64,000 bases of DNA from the NCBI RefSeq assembly GCF_029504655.1, contig NZ_JAQFIL010000001.1, positions 5,585,001 to 5,649,000 of the forward strand, written 5' to 3'. Source of the stretch: Catalinimonas alkaloidigena (GTDB taxonomy: Bacteria > Bacteroidota > Bacteroidia > Cytophagales > Cyclobacteriaceae). Shown in pieces: positions 46,330 through 55,972 of this stretch. The number at the start of each line of letters is the position of its first letter. The first letter of the stretch is position 1. The notes beneath the pieces were generated by a model. The model had not been told where the DNA came from and did not search any database. It saw nothing but the letters and a program-made list of their open reading frames with translations. The position numbers and the translations under genes were made by a program.

Positions 46330-47697
46330 ATGAAGGATTTTAACATCAATCGCCGTCACTTTCTCAAAAGTGCATCGGCTTCCCTGGCACTCTCAACCCT
46401 CGGCCCCGGAGGATTGGATATAATTTTTCAGGATAAACCACTACGTGTGGGGCTGATCGGCACGGGCTGGTACGGAAAAAGTGACTTATTTCGACTGCTA
46501 CAGGTAGCGCCGGTAGAAGTAAAGGCCCTTTGTGATCCTGATAATAATATGCTTTCGGAAGCAGCAAACCTGCTAAGCCAACGTCAGAAGTCCGAAAAGA
46601 AACCCAGACTTTATAATGATTACCGTAGACTGTTGGCTGATGAAGAGCTGGATATCGTTATCATAGGCTCACCTGACCACTGGCATGCTTTGCAGATGAT
46701 TGATGCGGTAAAAGCCGGTAATCATGTCTATGTACAAAAACCAATCAGCGTGGATGTGATGGAAGGAGAGGCGATGGTAGCGGCTGCACGCAAATACAAT
46801 AAAGTAGTGCAGGTAGGTACCCAGCGCAAAAGTACGCCTCATCTGATTGATGCCAAAAAGAAGGTGGTAGATGCTGGCCTGTTAGGCAAAGTATCGCACG
46901 TAGAGATGTGCTGCTATTTCCATATGCGTGCCAATGGCAACCCTCCCGTGCAGGAAGTACCCGATTTCTTTGATTATGAGATGTGGACCGGCCCAGCTCC
47001 TATGCGACCTTATGACGGACTTCCTCATCGCAGATGGTGGCGAACCTTTATGGAATATGGCAACGGCATTATGGGCGATATGTGCGTACATATGCTGGAC
47101 ACCGTCCGCTGGATGCTGGACTTAGGCTGGCCCAAACGTATCTCTTCCCAGGGTGGGATTTATGTGCAGAAAGACGGAAAGTCTAATATTGCCGACACCC
47201 AGTCAGCGGTGTTTGAATATGATGAACTGAACTGTGTATGGCAGCACCGTAGCTGGGGAACTCCTGCCGACCCTGAATATCCCTGGTCGTTTAAACTGTA
47301 CGGTGAAAAAGGCACACTGGAGGGAAGTACCATGCAGGCTGACTTTATCCCTTATGGAGATGGTGAGAAAATACATTTTGACGTACTCTATGAAAAAGAA
47401 AAATATCCTGAAGATCTGACTGAAAAGGATATTGAGCTAAATGCAGCTCCAGCTACCCGTTTGCACATGCTGGATTTTCTTGATGCTATTAAAAATGGAA
47501 GTAAGCCAATTGCCGATATTGAAGAGGGGCATATTTCTACCGCAAGCTGTATACTGGCGAATCTATCTATGGAAACCGGTCGCCCACTGGTATATGATCC
47601 TCAAAAACGGCAGATTATTGGCGATCGTGAGGCAAACGGACTATTGCAACGTACTTATCGGCAACCCTGGATTCACCCTGACCCTAAGAGTGTGTAA
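46330..47697 (+). CDS. Tat-exported Gfo/Idh/MocA-family oxidoreductase
   Basis: The 455-residue protein starts with a twin-arginine signal (NRRHFLKSASASLALSTLG). The NAD-binding domain (VGLIGTGWYGKSDLF; VIIGSPDHWHALQMIDAVKAGNHVYVQKP in parts) and the C-terminal alpha/beta substrate domain with GIMGDMCVHMLDTVRWM follow. Family members act on sugars, inositol or glycosidic linkages, and Tat export implies that the bound dinucleotide is folded before export. It probably follows the GH78-type gene functionally, processing a sugar product in the periplasm. Substrate unknown. Confidence 0.92.
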   Translation: MKDFNINRRHFLKSASASLALSTLGPGGLDIIFQDKPLRVGLIGTGWYGKSDLFRLLQVAPVEVKALCDPDNNMLSEAANLLSQRQKSEKKPRLYNDYRRLLADEELDIVIIGSPDHWHALQMIDAVKAGNHVYVQKPISVDVMEGEAMVAAARKYNKVVQVGTQRKSTPHLIDAKKKVVDAGLLGKVSHVEMCCYFHMRANGNPPVQEVPDFFDYEMWTGPAPMRPYDGLPHRRWWRTFMEYGNGIMGDMCVHMLDTVRWMLDLGWPKRISSQGGIYVQKDGKSNIADTQSAVFEYDELNCVWQHRSWGTPADPEYPWSFKLYGEKGTLEGSTMQADFIPYGDGEKIHFDVLYEKEKYPEDLTEKDIELNAAPATRLHMLDFLDAIKNGSKPIADIEEGHISTASCILANLSMETGRPLVYDPQKRQIIGDREANGLLQRTYRQPWIHPDPKSV

Positions 47698-48105: not shown

Positions 48106-48681
48106 ATGGTATTACAAGATTTAAGAGAAAAAACATCTGCTCAACACAGGCAGCTGGAATCTCACCCTTTACTTCATCAGCTCACCTCAGGCCAATTATC
48201 AACTGGAGTCTATAACACCATTTTGCAAAAGTTTTATGGTTTTTTCTCCCCTTTGGAAGAATTAATAAGTCAGTACTCACCTGAAGACTACTTGGAAGAT
48301 TATCAAGAACGCAGGAAAGCACAATTGCTGCTGCAGGATTTAAACAAGATTGACAATGACCATTTCAGCCAGCAGCTACCTGATATATGCGACGACCTCC
48401 CCAATATTACCAATACTGACGGTGCTATGGGGGCGCTTTATGTCATGGAAGGCTCAACATTAGGAGGGCAAATGATTTCAAGGCATGTAGAGAAAACCCT
48501 GGGCTTCACCCCTTCAAATGGTACTGCTTTTTTTTATGGCTATGGTAAAGATACCGGCAAACGCTGGAAGAAGTTTCAGCAAGCTATGCAGCAGTACACC
48601 AGCCGGCAACTTACGCATACACAACTCATCACTGGTGCCCAACACACGTTTTCCAAGCTTAATACCTGGCTTAGCTTATGA
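48106..48681 (+). CDS. bphO: Heme oxygenase (biliverdin-forming, phytochrome-linked)
   Basis: Heme oxygenase opens heme to biliverdin IX-alpha, CO and iron. The 191-residue all-helical protein has the proximal histidine His14 in SAQHRQLES and the distal-helix glycine segment YVMEGSTLGGQMISRHV. It is full length. Its stop overlaps the next start by four bases (ATGA), coupling it to the bacteriophytochrome gene. It therefore probably supplies the phytochrome chromophore rather than scavenging iron. Confidence 0.93.
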   Translation: MVLQDLREKTSAQHRQLESHPLLHQLTSGQLSTGVYNTILQKFYGFFSPLEELISQYSPEDYLEDYQERRKAQLLLQDLNKIDNDHFSQQLPDICDDLPNITNTDGAMGALYVMEGSTLGGQMISRHVEKTLGFTPSNGTAFFYGYGKDTGKRWKKFQQAMQQYTSRQLTHTQLITGAQHTFSKLNTWLSL

Positions 48682-50255
48682 GTAGAATAAACGATACACA
48701 CGATCAGGGTCCGAACAAAAAAAATCTCAGTGGGCAGATGGGCAGTAATGCGGAATTCTGCGGGAGCATCCCTCTCAACTTTCTTAACCTGATTCAGCCA
48801 CATGGAATGCTTGTACTACTGGATAAGTCGTACCGGATTGTACAGATTAGCGAAAATGTTGGTGAAATCCTGGGCAAAGAACCAAAAGAAGTTTTAGATC
48901 AACCTTTTGCCGCTTTATTCCCCAGCGATAAATTTGATGCATTTCAAAAGAAGACCGAGCAAGAGAAGCTGTATAATAACATCCCTCTTATCCTTCATCT
49001 TGAAACTACCGGGGGTGTCCAGCGCTTTGCAGGGATCATTCACTTTCACAAAAAATACCTGCTGCTGGAGTTGGAGCCTATAGAGGATGAAACCAGCGAC
49101 ATTACATTTATCAGTGCTTATCAGGACATTAAGTATATCATGGCCAGACTACAGCAGGTGGAAAAGCTTGCTGAATTCGGAGCCATCGCCGCCAATGAAA
49201 TCAGAAGCTTTTCGGGTTTTGATAGAGTCATGCTTTATCAGTTTGACGCACAGTGGAACGGCACCGTCATTGCTGAGGCACAGAAGGGTGAGCTTGAGCC
49301 TTATCTCGGCTTAAAATTCCCTGCCTCGGATGTCCCTAAGCAGGCGAGAGAGCTGTATTTTAAGAATCCTTATCGCCTTATTCCTGATGTAAACTTCAAG
49401 CCGGTAAGGTTATTCCCCATTGTGAATCCGTTGATCAACGGCTTTACAGATATTTCGGACTGTATGCTCAGAAGTGTACCTCAGGTCCATGTAGAATACT
49501 TAAAAAACATGAATGTACAGGCATCTATGTCTACGCCCATTATCGTGGACGGAAGGTTATGGGGACTGATTTCCTGTCATCATACTACTCCCAAGCATGT
49601 GCCCTTTGAGCAGCGTTATTCTTTTGAGGTATTTTCACAATTGATCTCCTCTCAGTTGGCCTCACGAGAAAGAGAAGAAAAGCTGAGCGTCCTCAATAGC
49701 AGACGCAGGCTGGAGTTGAAACTGATTGAGCTGGTTTATAAAAAGAAAGAGTTTGAGCCCGAAATATTAATAGCGTCCGATTTGCTCTTAGAACTTTTCC
49801 ATGCCGATTCGGCTGCTCTGGTTTGGGGCAGTCAGTATGAAGGGCAGGGTAAGATCCCTTCCAGGAGTCATGCGCAGGAAATAGTGAAATGGTTGAGGCT
49901 TTTTAATAAGGAAAAAGTATTCTCTACCTCATCACTTGTTAAGCATGTGAGAACCGCAGCTGCTTACAAAGATATTGGCAGTGGGTTACTGGCTATTCAG
50001 TTTTCCCATTCGCCGGTAGGCTATCTTTTGCTTTTCCGTCCGGAGATTATACAGACTGTAAACTGGGGAGGAAATCCCAATGAAACAATAAAATTTGAGG
50101 ATGATGGTAAGCGTTATCATCCAAGGAACTCCTTCAAAAAATGGCAGGAGAAAGTAGAGTTCACCTCCAAGCCCTGGGAAAGAGAATTGGTAGAGATTGC
50201 AAAAAATCTCCGAACAGTATTGCTGGAAAAGGTGTTAATGGATTTGCAGGAATAG
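48678..50255 (+). CDS. bphP: Bacteriophytochrome photosensory protein without a kinase domain
   Basis: The 525-residue protein has PAS (about 30-140), GAF (about 155-330) and PHY (about 345-525) domains. Cys28 lies 11 residues before IQPHG (39-43), exactly where bacteriophytochromes bind biliverdin. PASDVP (215-220) provides the chromophore-site aspartate, and His271 and His301 match the two conserved GAF histidines. The PHY tongue has WGG (463-465) and PRNSF (482-486). After PHY the protein stops, with no histidine kinase, GGDEF or other output domain. It should switch between red- and far-red-absorbing states and act through a partner, probably the hybrid kinase encoded next. Confidence 0.93.
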   Translation: MSRINDTHDQGPNKKNLSGQMGSNAEFCGSIPLNFLNLIQPHGMLVLLDKSYRIVQISENVGEILGKEPKEVLDQPFAALFPSDKFDAFQKKTEQEKLYNNIPLILHLETTGGVQRFAGIIHFHKKYLLLELEPIEDETSDITFISAYQDIKYIMARLQQVEKLAEFGAIAANEIRSFSGFDRVMLYQFDAQWNGTVIAEAQKGELEPYLGLKFPASDVPKQARELYFKNPYRLIPDVNFKPVRLFPIVNPLINGFTDISDCMLRSVPQVHVEYLKNMNVQASMSTPIIVDGRLWGLISCHHTTPKHVPFEQRYSFEVFSQLISSQLASREREEKLSVLNSRRRLELKLIELVYKKKEFEPEILIASDLLLELFHADSAALVWGSQYEGQGKIPSRSHAQEIVKWLRLFNKEKVFSTSSLVKHVRTAAAYKDIGSGLLAIQFSHSPVGYLLLFRPEIIQTVNWGGNPNETIKFEDDGKRYHPRNSFKKWQEKVEFTSKPWERELVEIAKNLRTVLLEKVLMDLQE

Positions 50256-50341
50256 CCCCCCTGTGCCAACATACAGGTTGTTTTGGTAGTTTTTCCCTAA
50301 CCCATAAATGCTACAGGCTTTATTTTCTTTAAGTTAAATTC

Positions 50342-53300
50342 ATGCGAAATAAAAAAGCTTCTGATCAGGTCATTAACAAAGAAGCTGAAGCAATACAGGA
50401 AAATCACTTCATTGTAGGTGTAGGCGCTTCAGCAGGAGGTTTAGAGGCCATTAACGAACTCTTTGACAATATACCGGAAGGCTACGGATTCTCTTATGTG
50501 GTGATCCAGCACCTTTCTCCTAACTATAAAAGTTTGATGGACGAGCTTCTGGCTAAACATACCAAGCTCAAAATCATCAAGGCAGAAGAAGGGAAGGTAA
50601 TAGAACCTAATTGTATCTATCTGATTCCTAATAAAAACAATATGGTGATCAGAAATGGAAGGCTGCACCTTATAGACAAACCTTCGTCTTCCATTCCTAA
50701 CAATGCGATTGACGTCTTCTTTGAATCGCTGGCAGAAGACAAGGGCAACCGTGTAATCGGAATCGTACTTTCAGGTACAGGTTCAGATGGCACCAAAGGT
50801 ATCGCTGCCATCAAAGAGCGTAGAGGTATGGTCATCGTACAGGATCCGGTTACTGCCAAGTTTGATGGCATGCCTAACAACGCGATAGCATCAGGTAATT
50901 ATGACTTCATCCTTCCTCCCGAGCTCATGTCAGAAGAAATTTTACGCTACCCTCAGCTAGTACGTCAACAGCATAGCCATGATAACCTGAATGAACTTGA
51001 CGGCATGGACCCCTTCCAGAAAATTCTGAGGCTCATCAAGGACAGTACTTCCTATGACTTTACGTGCTACAAAAAGAAAACCCTGGAGCGAAGAATCTCC
51101 AAAAGGATGGCAGAAACAGGTATCAATGAGCTTAGAGAATATACACTCTACCTCTTGAATAATCCTGAAGAAGTAGATACGCTCGCCAATGAATTTCTTA
51201 TAGGCGTTACCCGCTTTTTCCGTGATCCTTTCGCCTTTGATATTATCCGCGATGAGGTAATTCCTGACCTGATCAACAAAAAAAATCATGATGACCAGCT
51301 CAAGGTTTGGGTTACCGCCTGTAGCACCGGTGAGGAAGCGTATACCCTGGCGATACTTATACATGAGCACCTGGAGCGTCTAGGAAAAAAGCTCAATGTA
51401 AAAATATTTGCCACTGACATGGATTCGCGCGCCATAGAAATCGCCGCCAAAGGGGTATACCCAATCAGTATAGAAAGTGATCTCTCCCGGGATAAGCTGA
51501 ACGCTCACTTTTCAAAGGAAGGGAAAAGTTATATCATCAGCCGTGAAATCCGTAAGATGGTGATTTTCGCGCAGCACAATATCATTAAAGACCCTCCATT
51601 CGGACAAATGGATATGGTGAGTTGCCGTAATATGCTCATCTACATGCGCAGTGAGCTGCAGAAAAAGGTGATGGAAACTTTTCATTTTTCTCTCAGTGTA
51701 GGAGGTTACCTCTTTCTTGGCTCCAGTGAAAGTGCCGGTGCCATCAAAGATTCGCTGAAAGTGATCAATAAAAAATGGAATATTTTCCAGACGACTAATA
51801 AAAGTAAATCTTTCATTTTTGAAAGCCGGGAAATCAGCAATGAACCCAGAGATGTTCAGAAGACTCCAAACGTCCAGCCTAAAAAGCTTTCGGTAGAATC
51901 CAAGATGAAAGAGGCTTTTCATGAAGCCATCGTTGAAGAGTTAGGATATGCCGCAGTGTTTATCAATGAAAGCTACGACCTCTTGCAGGCATTCGGCGAC
52001 TATAAAAAGTTTCTGCACCTGCACGAAAATCAGCTACGCATGAGCCTGCTTAAAATGGTACCCAAGGAAGTATCAGTAGCTTTGACACTTGCTTTGAGGA
52101 AGGCACTTTCTAAAAACGAAAAAGTAGTTTCTAAACGCATACGTCTTGGAAAAGGAAAAGAGCGCCGGACCATCAGCCTGATCGTAAAACCCTATTTATC
52201 ACCTCACCTTTACGAGCAAAAGTTTTTGCTGGTACTTTTCCGTGATGAGAAAACAGAACAAATTATTCAGGATGAAACTGATTCCGACAGCTATGACAAC
52301 CAGGTGAATATTGACCGCCTATCTGAGTTAGAAGAGGAGCTGAAAGAAACCAAAGAAGACCTGCAAACTACGGTAGAGGAGTTGGAAACATCCAATGAAG
52401 AGCTGCAGTCCAGCAATGAAGAGCTATTGTCTTCCAATGAAGAGCTGCAAAGCACCAATGAAGAACTGCAGTCACTTAATGAGGAGCTGCACACTGTTAA
52501 TGCGGAGCACCAGATCAAGATCAAAGAACTGGTAGAGTTGAACGATGACCTCAACAACTATTTCAGTAGCTCGAACATAGGACAGATCTTTGTAGACAGA
52601 GAGCTGATCATTAGAAAATATACCCCTGAAGTTACCAAGCAGGTCAATCTTATTGACTCTGATGTAGGCCGCCCCATCAATCACTTATCCTACAACCTCA
52701 AATACGATCACTTTGTAGAAGATATTCGCTCAGTGATAAATACGCAAGAAGTGATAGAAAAAGAGCTTGAAGTATCTGATAATCAACATTATCTGATGCG
52801 AATCATACCTTACATTCGTCAGGATAAATCGGTAGACGGAGCGGTGATCACTTTTGTGGATATCACCCGTGTGAAGCAACTTAATAACCTGCTTAGTGGC
52901 ATACTGCAAAGCTCACCCAATGGTATCATGGCTTTTGATAGCGTGTATGAGGATAAAAATATAATAGACTTTAAATGGGTTATGGCTAATGATGCTATCA
53001 AGCATATTATTGGTAAAGCCCCTGACCAACTGATAGGAAAAAGCCTGCTTAAAGAGATGCCGGGCATGCAGAAAGCAGGCATTTTTAAAAAAATGAAGAA
53101 GATTGCCTCTAAAGGAGGGGTATTGCGTCAGGAGGTACATTATCAGTATGAAGAACTGGATATCTGGATAGAAGTGCTGGCTGCCCCTATGAAAAAAGGT
53201 GTAGCCATGACCATCTCTGATATACATGAAAAGAAAGAAGCCGAAGAAGAGCTCTTTATAGCCTATGAGGAGGTAAAGAAAGGAGAAGAAAAGCTACGGA

Positions 53301-54445
53301 AGCTTAATACCGAGCTTGAAAAGAGAGTAGAAGACCGTACCCGTGCGCTTACTGAAAGTGAACAACGCTTCCGGCTGGTAGCCCAAGCTACGAATGATGC
53401 TATCTGGGACTGGAATATGATGACCAATACATTTTGGTGGAACGATACTTTTGAAGAAATCTTTGGTTACGACCGAGATAAGCTAGAGCCGGGCATAGAC
53501 GCTTTGTTCAGTTACCTGCATAATGACGAATTAGAAGCTGTAAAAAATGATATAGACAGGGTAATTAACCATGGCGATAAGCAATGGTCATTTGAGCATC
53601 GCTTCAAAAAGTCTGATGGCTCATACGCTTACGTTTATAACCGTGCGTATATAATCCATAATGAATACGGGGTACCCTACCGGATACTAGGCTCAATGAT
53701 TGATGTCAGTAAGCTGAAAGAAGTGCAGGAAGAGCTAAAGCACAGCAACAAAAACCTGAAACGTATCAATGTTGACCTGGACAATTTTGTATACACTGCT
53801 TCCCATGACCTGAAAGCTCCTATTACTAACCTGGAAAGCCTGATTTCAATCTTAAAAAATGAAATCAACGGAGATGGCAAGAGAAGCGATATGGTCCTGG
53901 AAAAAATGGATACTTCTATTCAAAAGTTTAAAGACACACTAAAAGCACTGGCTGAAATTACTAAAGTACAACGTAATCCGGACAGCACCAGTGAGTTTCT
54001 CTCCATAAAGAAAACGCTGGACAATGTGCAGGAGGACATCAAACAGGCGATAGAAGAAGAAAAGCCGGAGATACATGAGGACCTGAAGGTAGATCAGTTG
54101 TATTACTCCCGAATTAACCTGAGAAGTATCATCTATAATTTGCTGAGCAATGCCATCAAGTACAAATCTCCTGACCGTAAACCGATTATTAACATACGCT
54201 CTTACGAAGAAGAAAATTACGTAGTACTGGAAGTGGAAGATAATGGTTTAGGCATGAATGAAAGGCAGCAGAAGAAGCTTTTTTCAATGTTCAAACGCTT
54301 TCACAAGCATGTACAGGGTACTGGTATTGGGCTTTATATGGTAAAGCGTATGGTTGAAAACAGAGATGGGTTTATCGAAGTGGAAAGCGAAGAAGGAGAA
54401 GGTACTTCCTTCAGAGTTTTTATCAAAAAAGAAAAAGCGCAATAA
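50342..54445 (+). CDS. CheB-CheR-PAS-histidine kinase hybrid
   Basis: The 1367-residue protein starts with a CheB methylesterase domain without receiver (about 20-205; catalytic Ser30, His57, Asp149). A CheR methyltransferase follows (about 222-490; SAM motif TACSTGEEAYTLA at 326-338). Next come a coiled coil of heptads (about 660-728) and three PAS-like regions (about 735-850, 870-985 and 1015-1140). A HisKA domain with SHDLKAPITN (His about 1155) and an HATPase domain (N box NAIKYKS, about 1268; G boxes DNGLGM and GTGIGLYMV) complete it. Such fusions are known sensory kinases. No receiver domain or response regulator gene follows. It lies 86 bases after bphP on the same strand. Confidence 0.92.
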   Translation: MRNKKASDQVINKEAEAIQENHFIVGVGASAGGLEAINELFDNIPEGYGFSYVVIQHLSPNYKSLMDELLAKHTKLKIIKAEEGKVIEPNCIYLIPNKNNMVIRNGRLHLIDKPSSSIPNNAIDVFFESLAEDKGNRVIGIVLSGTGSDGTKGIAAIKERRGMVIVQDPVTAKFDGMPNNAIASGNYDFILPPELMSEEILRYPQLVRQQHSHDNLNELDGMDPFQKILRLIKDSTSYDFTCYKKKTLERRISKRMAETGINELREYTLYLLNNPEEVDTLANEFLIGVTRFFRDPFAFDIIRDEVIPDLINKKNHDDQLKVWVTACSTGEEAYTLAILIHEHLERLGKKLNVKIFATDMDSRAIEIAAKGVYPISIESDLSRDKLNAHFSKEGKSYIISREIRKMVIFAQHNIIKDPPFGQMDMVSCRNMLIYMRSELQKKVMETFHFSLSVGGYLFLGSSESAGAIKDSLKVINKKWNIFQTTNKSKSFIFESREISNEPRDVQKTPNVQPKKLSVESKMKEAFHEAIVEELGYAAVFINESYDLLQAFGDYKKFLHLHENQLRMSLLKMVPKEVSVALTLALRKALSKNEKVVSKRIRLGKGKERRTISLIVKPYLSPHLYEQKFLLVLFRDEKTEQIIQDETDSDSYDNQVNIDRLSELEEELKETKEDLQTTVEELETSNEELQSSNEELLSSNEELQSTNEELQSLNEELHTVNAEHQIKIKELVELNDDLNNYFSSSNIGQIFVDRELIIRKYTPEVTKQVNLIDSDVGRPINHLSYNLKYDHFVEDIRSVINTQEVIEKELEVSDNQHYLMRIIPYIRQDKSVDGAVITFVDITRVKQLNNLLSGILQSSPNGIMAFDSVYEDKNIIDFKWVMANDAIKHIIGKAPDQLIGKSLLKEMPGMQKAGIFKKMKKIASKGGVLRQEVHYQYEELDIWIEVLAAPMKKGVAMTISDIHEKKEAEEELFIAYEEVKKGEEKLRKLNTELEKRVEDRTRALTESEQRFRLVAQATNDAIWDWNMMTNTFWWNDTFEEIFGYDRDKLEPGIDALFSYLHNDELEAVKNDIDRVINHGDKQWSFEHRFKKSDGSYAYVYNRAYIIHNEYGVPYRILGSMIDVSKLKEVQEELKHSNKNLKRINVDLDNFVYTASHDLKAPITNLESLISILKNEINGDGKRSDMVLEKMDTSIQKFKDTLKALAEITKVQRNPDSTSEFLSIKKTLDNVQEDIKQAIEEEKPEIHEDLKVDQLYYSRINLRSIIYNLLSNAIKYKSPDRKPIINIRSYEEENYVVLEVEDNGLGMNERQQKKLFSMFKRFHKHVQGTGIGLYMVKRMVENRDGFIEVESEEGEGTSFRVFIKKEKAQ
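52394..52498 (+). repeat. Five 21-bp heptad-coding repeats in the kinase coiled coil
   Basis: Five tandem 21-base units starting at 52394, 52415, 52436, 52457 and 52478 each begin AATGAAGAG or a near copy. They encode N-E-E-L-Q/L/H-x-x heptads (from about Asn685). The pattern is a known coiled-coil linker of CheB/CheR hybrids. It also explains a spurious Ser-rich ORF on the opposite strand. Confidence 0.9.
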
Positions 54446-54496: not shown

Positions 54497-55972
54497 TCAA
54501 TCCGGTTCCCGCTCGTCTCTTAAGTGTATAAATTTTTTGTATGCTTCAAACAGCAGTTGATGAGCCTTTTTATCCGGCTGAAATACATTTTTCTTTTGAG
54601 GTATAATCTCTTCTATTGAGGTAATACCCAATGCAAAAGCTCCCAGCAGTACTGCTCCCCGGGCCACGCCATGCGTACTTGAAGAGCGATACACCGGCAA
54701 ATCAAACACATTGGCTATCAGCTGAGCCATAAAATCTGACTGGGTAAGGCCTCCGTCGGTCCACAGCCCTTCAATCTGGCTGGATGAAGCGGTCTGAAGC
54801 GTTTGAGCAATTCCGTACAGGTTGAATACAATACCTTCCAATGCGGCCCGGGCAAAATGGTCCCTTCCGTGCTGGCTTTGCACGCCATAAAATTTTCCGG
54901 AGACCTCTTCTCGCCACAAGGGGGCTCTCTCACCAAAAAAGTAAGGCAGGCAAATTACGCCTTCTGCTCCTACACCTGCTGTCTCTGCCTTTTGTAGAAT
55001 AACAGAAGGATCAGAAATATCAGGGTAAAACTTCTGCCTCAGCCAGTCCAGCACAATTCCTCCATTATTGGTAGGCCCGCCAATCACATGATATTGGTCT
55101 GTAAGGTAGTAATCAAATATGCTCATTGCCGGATCTGGCAATGTATTCCTGGCAGTAATACGGATGGCCCCGCTGGTTCCTAAAGTCAGGGTGGCTTCCT
55201 TTTGGTTGAAACCACTGGCGTTTAGGTTGGCCAGACAGCCATCACTGGCGCCAAGGATAAACTTTGTATCTTCAGTGATGTTCGGATGATCAAAACTTCT
55301 GAAGGCTGGCCTCCCCAACTGATATGTCGGAGGGACTACCAGAGATAGCTGATGCTCCGCTATTCCAGCCCATTCCAGGGCTTGCTGATTCCATTGCAGC
55401 GTTTCTTTGTTCCACAGGCCGGAAGCACCGGCAATCGCATAATCCACCATATAACGGCCAAACCACTGCGCAATGCAATACTCTTTGATACTTATAAATT
55501 TGTGGGTTTTCCTGAAAATTTCGGCTTGATTATCCCTGAGCCAGGCTATTTTGCACAATGGCAGCATGGCGTGTACCGGAGCACCTGAGTCTTCATATAG
55601 CTGCCTGCCCAATGCAGTTTTTCTCAACCCTGAGGCATATCGGCTACTCCGCACGTCCGCCCAGATGATCGCCGGCGTCAGGGCTTTACCCTGATCATCT
55701 ATCGCTATAAGGCTGTGCATGGCTGCACCAAAAGATATAGCAGCTACCGGCCTGCTAAGCTGGTCTAAGACCTGTTTTAAATTTTTTTCAGTTACCTTCA
55801 GAATTTCTTCCGGATCCTGTTCTCTGTAACCTGCTTCGGGCTGAGATAAAGAGTAGGTTGCCTCCGCAACAGCTACTGTCTCTCCCAGAGGATTAGCAGC
55901 CAGCACTTTAACACCTGTGGTCCCTACATCAATCCCTATGATAAGCTGCTCACGATCTGTAATATCCTTCAT
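54497..55972 (-). CDS. gntK: FGGY-family carbohydrate kinase (gluconokinase type)
   Basis: The 491-residue kinase has the FGGY N-terminal phosphate motif IIGIDVGTTGVKV, the gluconokinase-like AAMHSLIAID and SGAPVHAMLP segments, LGASDGCLANL and the ATP-site GLWTDGGLTQSDFM region. It should phosphorylate gluconate or a similar sugar acid or polyol in the cytoplasm. It lies 101 bases downstream of the SusD gene on the same strand and may belong to the same catabolic unit, taking up a product of the imported glycan. Other FGGY substrates cannot be excluded. Confidence 0.87.
   Translation of the reverse strand: MKDITDREQLIIGIDVGTTGVKVLAANPLGETVAVAEATYSLSQPEAGYREQDPEEILKVTEKNLKQVLDQLSRPVAAISFGAAMHSLIAIDDQGKALTPAIIWADVRSSRYASGLRKTALGRQLYEDSGAPVHAMLPLCKIAWLRDNQAEIFRKTHKFISIKEYCIAQWFGRYMVDYAIAGASGLWNKETLQWNQQALEWAGIAEHQLSLVVPPTYQLGRPAFRSFDHPNITEDTKFILGASDGCLANLNASGFNQKEATLTLGTSGAIRITARNTLPDPAMSIFDYYLTDQYHVIGGPTNNGGIVLDWLRQKFYPDISDPSVILQKAETAGVGAEGVICLPYFFGERAPLWREEVSGKFYGVQSQHGRDHFARAALEGIVFNLYGIAQTLQTASSSQIEGLWTDGGLTQSDFMAQLIANVFDLPVYRSSSTHGVARGAVLLGAFALGITSIEEIIPQKKNVFQPDKKAHQLLFEAYKKFIHLRDEREPD

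Follow-up and report, generated by a model that had tools for sequence, protein, structure and literature searches.

The window analysed here, a stretch of 64,000 nucleotides from Catalinimonas alkaloidigena, carries a co-directional unit of three genes, all on the forward strand, that encode a heme oxygenase (HO), a phytochrome terminating after its PHY domain and a CheB-CheR-coiled coil-PAS-histidine kinase. A first-pass annotation had placed a four-base overlap between the first two genes (HO ends at 48681, the phytochrome begins at 48678) and the kinase 86 bases after the phytochrome on the same strand, both of which the ORF coordinates bear out. The upstream neighbour of HO is a same-strand gene ending at 47697, 408 bases 5′ of HO, and the downstream neighbour, an FGGY kinase gene by Pfam (54497-55972), is convergent to the module. 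The module therefore stands alone. Its features are as follows.

48106..48681, +, heme oxygenase, predicted biliverdin source, 191 aa (PF01126, 5.1e-21)
48678..50255, +, kinase-less bacteriophytochrome, PAS-GAF-PHY, 525 aa (Pfam, fold search)
48759..48761, +, codon of Cys28, the expected biliverdin attachment residue (invariant in 64/64)
48774..49079, +, PAS_2 domain, residues 33-134 (Pfam)
49185..49661, +, GAF domain, residues 170-328, with PASD218, His271 and His301 (Pfam, alignment)
49704..50237, +, PHY domain, residues 343-520, with the PRNSF tongue at 482-486 (Pfam)
50342..54445, +, CheB-CheR-coiled coil-PAS-histidine kinase, 1367 aa (Pfam)
50414..50941, +, CheB methylesterase, residues 25-200, with Ser30, His57 and Asp149
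51014..51778, +, CheR_N and CheR methyltransferase, residues 225-479
51893..52261, +, possible cryptic PAS-like region, residues 518-640 (predicted helix/strand order only)
52307..52570, +, single 88-residue helix, residues 656-743, with six Glu-Glu pairs spaced 7 residues apart in the window kinase (model)
52550..52867, +, PAS_10 domain, residues 737-842 (Pfam)
52967..53236, +, PAS_4 domain, residues 876-965 (Pfam)
53435..53695, +, PAS_3 domain, residues 1032-1118 (Pfam)
53780..53965, +, HisKA region, residues 1147-1208, with His1155 (weak in Pfam; His in 59/59)
54113..54433, +, HATPase_c, residues 1258-1364, with Asn1270 and Asp1300 (Pfam)

Domains of the phytochrome and the kinase

Pfam detects PAS_2, GAF and PHY (2.9e-45) in the phytochrome and nothing after PHY, in agreement with the earlier reading that it has no output domain. 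The chain ends 25 residues beyond Trp500, and an alignment of the 64 kinase-less phytochromes collected below gives a tail of 22-27 residues past this column in every one, indicating a fixed truncation point. The chromophore residues had been called intact. Cys28, His271 and His301 do sit at these positions, PASDVP and PRNSF are present in the translation, and the 64 proteins show no variation at Cys28, Asp218, either histidine or the PRxSF positions tested. With its PAS-GAF-PHY order, N-terminal Cys, PASD motif, two histidines and PRxSF tongue, the protein has the hallmarks of a bacteriophytochrome photosensory module and would be expected to bind biliverdin and photoconvert. Its AlphaFold model (pLDDT 83.6) has Cph1, FiDCB, the myxobacterial phytochrome P2 and Agp1 as its nearest PDB folds, and 6pl0, of the XccBphP type, is also met among the matches. 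We considered and rejected the identity of a bacteriophytochrome histidine kinase (the BphP equivalog NF041576): the score of 291.7 bits lies under the cut-off of 1040, with a match spanning 11-507 of 622, and the chain stops after PHY, without HisKA or HATPase.

In the kinase, Pfam finds CheB (4.6e-54), CheR_N, CheR (2.9e-53), PAS_10, PAS_4, PAS_3 and HATPase_c (2.5e-22). Residue counts were made over the 59 partner kinases longer than 1300 aa. The CheB residues Ser30, His57 and Asp149 are invariant in all 59, and the CheR and kinase residues are likewise kept, except for E331Q (7 proteins) and D1156E (13); the window kinase has Glu rather than Gln at 331. Pfam and these conserved catalytic residues together confirm the annotated CheB and CheR domains. 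The kinase part had been described as a full HisKA/HATPase, which holds for the motifs, with the phospho-acceptor His1155, Asn1270 of the N-box, Asp1300 and the tested glycines all kept in 59/59, and for the HATPase_c match, but not for the Pfam HisKA score, at 17.4 bits against a cut-off of 26.9. We accordingly describe the protein as a CheB-CheR fusion sensor kinase whose HisKA is sub-threshold in Pfam. The VIA-align rows for this protein comprise CheB, CheR and other methyltransferase folds only, and are uninformative on the PAS and coiled-coil parts. Residues 515-655 have no Pfam match at E<=1, so the possible PAS-like region in this stretch remains a structural guess.

Residues 656-743 are modelled as one 88-residue helix (mean pLDDT 75.7), whose Glu-Glu heptad spacing resembles that of chemoreceptor methylation helices. 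Consecutive [Glu/Gln]-Glu heptads number 5-6 in 61/61 kinases linked to a phytochrome, 3-9 in 24/24 unlinked ones and at most 3 in shuffled sequences. Runs of at least three thus occur in 85/85 CheB-CheR fusions and are not specific to the linked kinases. As a hypothesis only, the helix is a candidate methyl-accepting substrate; it may be a simple coiled coil.

Conservation and ancestry of the pair

Searches with PF00360 matched 33 of 146 relatives, 40 of 395 genomes of the phylum and at least 165 of 390 genomes of the order. When 395 genomes of the class were searched with a profile built from kinase-less phytochromes, a score gap separated 4 kinase-less matches (>=604.9 bits) from all others (<=415.3 bits). 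From such profile searches and the best 80 named loci, out of 588 relatives, we assembled 64 distinct kinase-less phytochromes of 497-557 aa. This set excludes L131 (a truncated phytochrome at the end of a 4.4-kb contig), the duplicates L132 and L133, and a kinase-less match in G1141.

A CheB-CheR fusion is the same-strand neighbour of 62 of these 64 phytochromes, downstream in 59 and upstream in 3. The downstream partners follow at a median gap of 35 bp (<=100 bp in 51 of 59). At L158-L160 the order is reversed to kinase-phytochrome-HO, with an 11-bp overlap, so that the pair is retained despite the change. Within Bacteroidota alone, 62 of 63 adjoin a fusion. The pair occurs in Hymenobacteraceae, Sphingobacteriaceae, Chitinophagaceae and the family of the window, with Pontibacter, Mucilaginibacter, Pedobacter, Flavipsychrobacter and Flavisolibacter among the named hosts. 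One of the two exceptions, L040, has HO and phytochrome with the kinase absent, in a genome that is 82% complete and holds only a 282-aa CheR frame. The other, L130, is from Bdellovibrionaceae and has no CheB-CheR neighbour. On the L130 contig, the kinase-less phytochrome (506 aa) and a phytochrome kinase of 1044 aa are encoded on opposite strands. The partner at L056 is cut by the contig end. At L157 the kinase lies in two ORFs and at L038 the CheB part is separate, which may be real splits or frame errors.

By contrast, none of 29 kinase-bearing Bacteroidota phytochromes, 16 of them from genomes that also hold a kinase-less pair, has a same-strand CheB-CheR fusion within 700 bp. Nor does any of 60 loci from other phyla, with one phytochrome each, by the same measure; most but not all of these phytochromes are kinase-bearing, and a few lie on contigs of 4-5 kb with short flanks. 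Among the Bacteroidota controls only L047 was flagged, for a lone 200-aa CheB 218 bp from the phytochrome on the same strand. At L043, the strand opposite to a kinase-bearing phytochrome encodes a CheB-CheR kinase, 1362 bp away.

Because the 7.9-Mb window genome has only 5 CheR genes, 4 of them CheB-CheR fusions, the pairing in 62 of 64 cases is well beyond chance. Loss of the neighbourhood in relatives had been named as the observation that would overturn the proposed link between the two proteins; the neighbourhood is instead strongly conserved, against 0/29 in the controls. The same annotation had called this exact split unfamiliar. The arrangement is real, but that wording was too narrow, as many Bacteroidota genera have the pair. 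By frame length (longest 1297 aa), no single-chain fusion of phytochrome and CheB-CheR kinase was seen among the matches listed, and in the open-licence literature we found no description of a pair of kinase-less phytochrome and CheB-CheR kinase.

In a FastTree phylogeny of 148 phytochromes, all 63 kinase-less Bacteroidota members form one branch (support 100) that contains no kinase-bearing member; L130 falls outside it. L019, labelled otherwise in the tree, and L036 of G026 are one gene, whose product stops 3 residues past PHY. A second tree, from a quick search and with several long branches, holds 61 of the 62 partner kinases (the two-ORF kinase of L157 being left out) and 24 unlinked fusions. 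The linked kinases cluster on it: their label needs 4 changes, against a mean of 21.1 when shuffled, which would allow a single origin. In both trees, L041, L033/L034 and L161, from the window's family or order, group with Pedobacter, Mucilaginibacter and Chitinophagaceae in a single branch of 21 rows. This shared branch across families suggests that phytochrome and kinase moved together. Over 59 pairs, phytochrome distances correlate with those of kinase residues 1-860 at r=0.92 and with those of the C-terminal part at 0.82, and the two parts of the kinase correlate with each other at 0.80, below the phytochrome-N-part value; a common species history accounts for part of each correlation.

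We also asked how each kinase domain of 58 linked and 22 unlinked proteins compares with the window's, leaving out the window's two congeners and setting L183 and L179 apart from the unlinked group. PAS_3 separates the groups best (mean identity 0.47 versus 0.19, the latter at 53% coverage), followed by PAS_10 (0.54 versus 0.36), and CheB does so less (0.58 versus 0.42). An exception is L183:4776-8870, the closest unlinked kinase to the partner group, which adjoins no phytochrome although its genome also holds a linked pair. Because its PAS_3 identity to the window is 0.40, this domain marks a wider kinase branch rather than strictly the phytochrome pairing. Some lineages have extra PAS domains before the kinase part.

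Chromophore supply and response regulators

The window HO is the sole PF01126 match in its genome; NCBIfam has no family for it, though Pfam matches. Of the 64 loci, 17 carry HO within the module, and His14, Glu18, Glu115, Gly116, Gly120 and Gly121 are invariant in these 17 proteins. Among 13 tested genomes without HO in the module, PF01126 is matched elsewhere in 8 and absent in 5. It is present in 12/12 Mucilaginibacter/Pedobacter genomes; the 5 genomes that lack it are Pontibacter-like, by which we mean the groups g317 and g333, whose link to Pontibacter comes from duplicate loci. PF01126 matches none of 22 Pontibacter-like genomes. Because PF01126 can miss divergent enzymes (G590 is negative, though the window's HO as query finds one there), we repeated the search with a 7-row HO profile, which likewise matched 0/22 Pontibacter-like genomes, against 6/6 positive controls.

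All 22 Pontibacter-like genomes encode a protein of the ABM family, roughly 98 aa long (PF03992, 4.3e-11), which is absent from the other genomes searched (0/3 and 0/24). In 12 of the 22 its gene lies beside a phytochrome, kinase-less or kinase-bearing, or at the module end, and it was located at the following loci.

L051:13752-14060, ABM gene
L053:13700-13996, ABM gene
L141:12611-12907, ABM gene
L144:12793-13089, ABM gene
L150:10010-10306, ABM gene
L149:9978-10268, ABM gene
L204, L206, L208-L210, L212 and L213, further ABM gene loci

In G647 a stop interrupts the frame three residues short of the match end. Among the solved structures closest to the ABM protein are MhuD and, at weaker similarity, heme-degrading enzymes of the IsdG type. 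The ABM protein may replace canonical HO as the bilin-making enzyme of these genomes. Heme degradation by it is only putative, because the residue aligned with Asn7 of MhuD is Ser and because the protein scores 36.9 with NCBIfam HmuQ, for which the cut-off is 130.

No response regulator adjoins the module in the window, as first annotated, yet a CheY-like regulator with a single domain is encoded within 9 kb at 10 of the 64 loci (L031, L032, L052, L055, L152, L155 and L157-L160), all of one type as judged by eye. Some receiver-like protein lies within 9 kb in 19 of 64. The window genome yields 26 receiver matches to one of these CheY-like proteins, the best at 43% identity.

A proposed split photoreceptor and its relation to known systems

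Together, these data give good support to the phytochrome and the kinase being a real, conserved and dedicated pair, and to that extent uphold the split sensor proposed from the sequence at the outset. We think it probable that HO, phytochrome and CheB-CheR kinase constitute a photoreceptor kinase for red and far-red light that is split between two proteins. A physical complex of phytochrome and kinase, light control of the kinase, the identity of the regulator and the methylation target are proposals. HO would make biliverdin, which would bind Cys28 of the phytochrome and allow Pr <-> Pfr switching. Since the phytochrome stops just past PHY, its light state would be handed by protein contact to the adjoining kinase, most plausibly through the PAS/coiled-coil region, where PAS_3 is the domain most distinctive of the linked kinases. 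Phosphate would then pass from the kinase to a single-domain regulator of the CheY type, whose gene lies close by in some relatives and would lie at another site in this genome. Methylation and demethylation of glutamates by the fused CheR and CheB would probably tune or adapt the response, the targets perhaps lying in the Glu-Glu heptad helix of the kinase itself.

The idea that this coiled coil holds a methylation memory is speculative. The fuller scheme built on it is less likely than not: a two-protein photoreceptor, widespread in Bacteroidota, whose kinase would adapt to light through self-methylation, without chemoreceptors, CheA or CheW, and which in Pontibacter-like genomes would draw its chromophore, possibly a different bilin, from an MhuD/IsdG-type enzyme.

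The two proteins could instead share a pathway without forming a complex, co-transcribed for light or redox responses, with the phytochrome acting on another partner and the kinase PAS domains sensing another input. The kinase does itself carry three or more PAS domains, L040 has a phytochrome without the kinase, and L183 is a kinase relative without an adjoining phytochrome. A loose association would, however, be expected to break more often than the 62/63 pairing of an output-less phytochrome in Bacteroidota, and the neighbours belong to one kinase cluster rather than being assorted kinases; we regard this explanation as unlikely. Somewhat less likely still is control by the phytochrome of its partner's CheB/CheR and not primarily of the kinase, the output being methylation of another protein. 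The closer tracking of phytochrome distances by residues 1-860 (CheB-CheR-coiled-coil-PAS_10; r=0.92) than by the kinase part (0.82) speaks for it, as do the additional PAS domains that some lineages have ahead of the kinase part. The lower C-terminal value may nevertheless stem from a gappier alignment, and the fact that 59/59 retain the HisKA His together with every HATPase residue tested argues that the kinase is under selection. That the neighbourhood is fortuitous or a recent local arrangement is refuted by its conservation across several families (62/64 versus 0/29 and 0/60), and we give this next to no credence, having found nothing in its favour. The split photoreceptor kinase remains our preferred reading.

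Such a system suggests how a sensor without an output domain can go on signalling, through a dedicated partner in trans. It would also give CheB-CheR fusion kinases an input that can be switched with a lamp, making CheB and CheR targets directly testable, and a two-part kinase under red-light control would serve optogenetics.

Cph1, DrBphP and Agp1 are single-protein phytochrome histidine kinases, often with a neighbouring single-domain regulator. The module shares their PAS-GAF-PHY sensor, with its Cys, PASD, two histidines and PRxSF, and, as proposed, a kinase output; here, however, the sensor belongs to a distinct clade without HisKA/HATPase, and the kinase is a separate, multi-domain protein with CheB and CheR. 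Phytochromes of the XccBphP type have a PAS9 output and no enzyme output. They resemble ours in lacking a kinase of their own and in the signalling by protein contact proposed here, whereas ours also lacks the C-terminal PAS and has a fixed kinase partner next door. RpBphP1 and PpsR2 bind each other in a light-dependent manner; the likeness is one of working, not of membership, in that the phytochrome state would be read by a second protein, which here is a kinase and not a repressor. As for CheB-CheR proteins, a CheB-CheR hybrid is described in R. centenum (PMC2890560), and CheB and methyltransferase domains are counted among those of Azospirillum kinases (PMC4618731). The window kinase has the CheB-CheR-coiled-coil layout of such fusion proteins and kinases, unlinked examples of which occur in the same genomes, but belongs to a phytochrome-tied group with, in most comparisons, a PAS_3 domain of its own.
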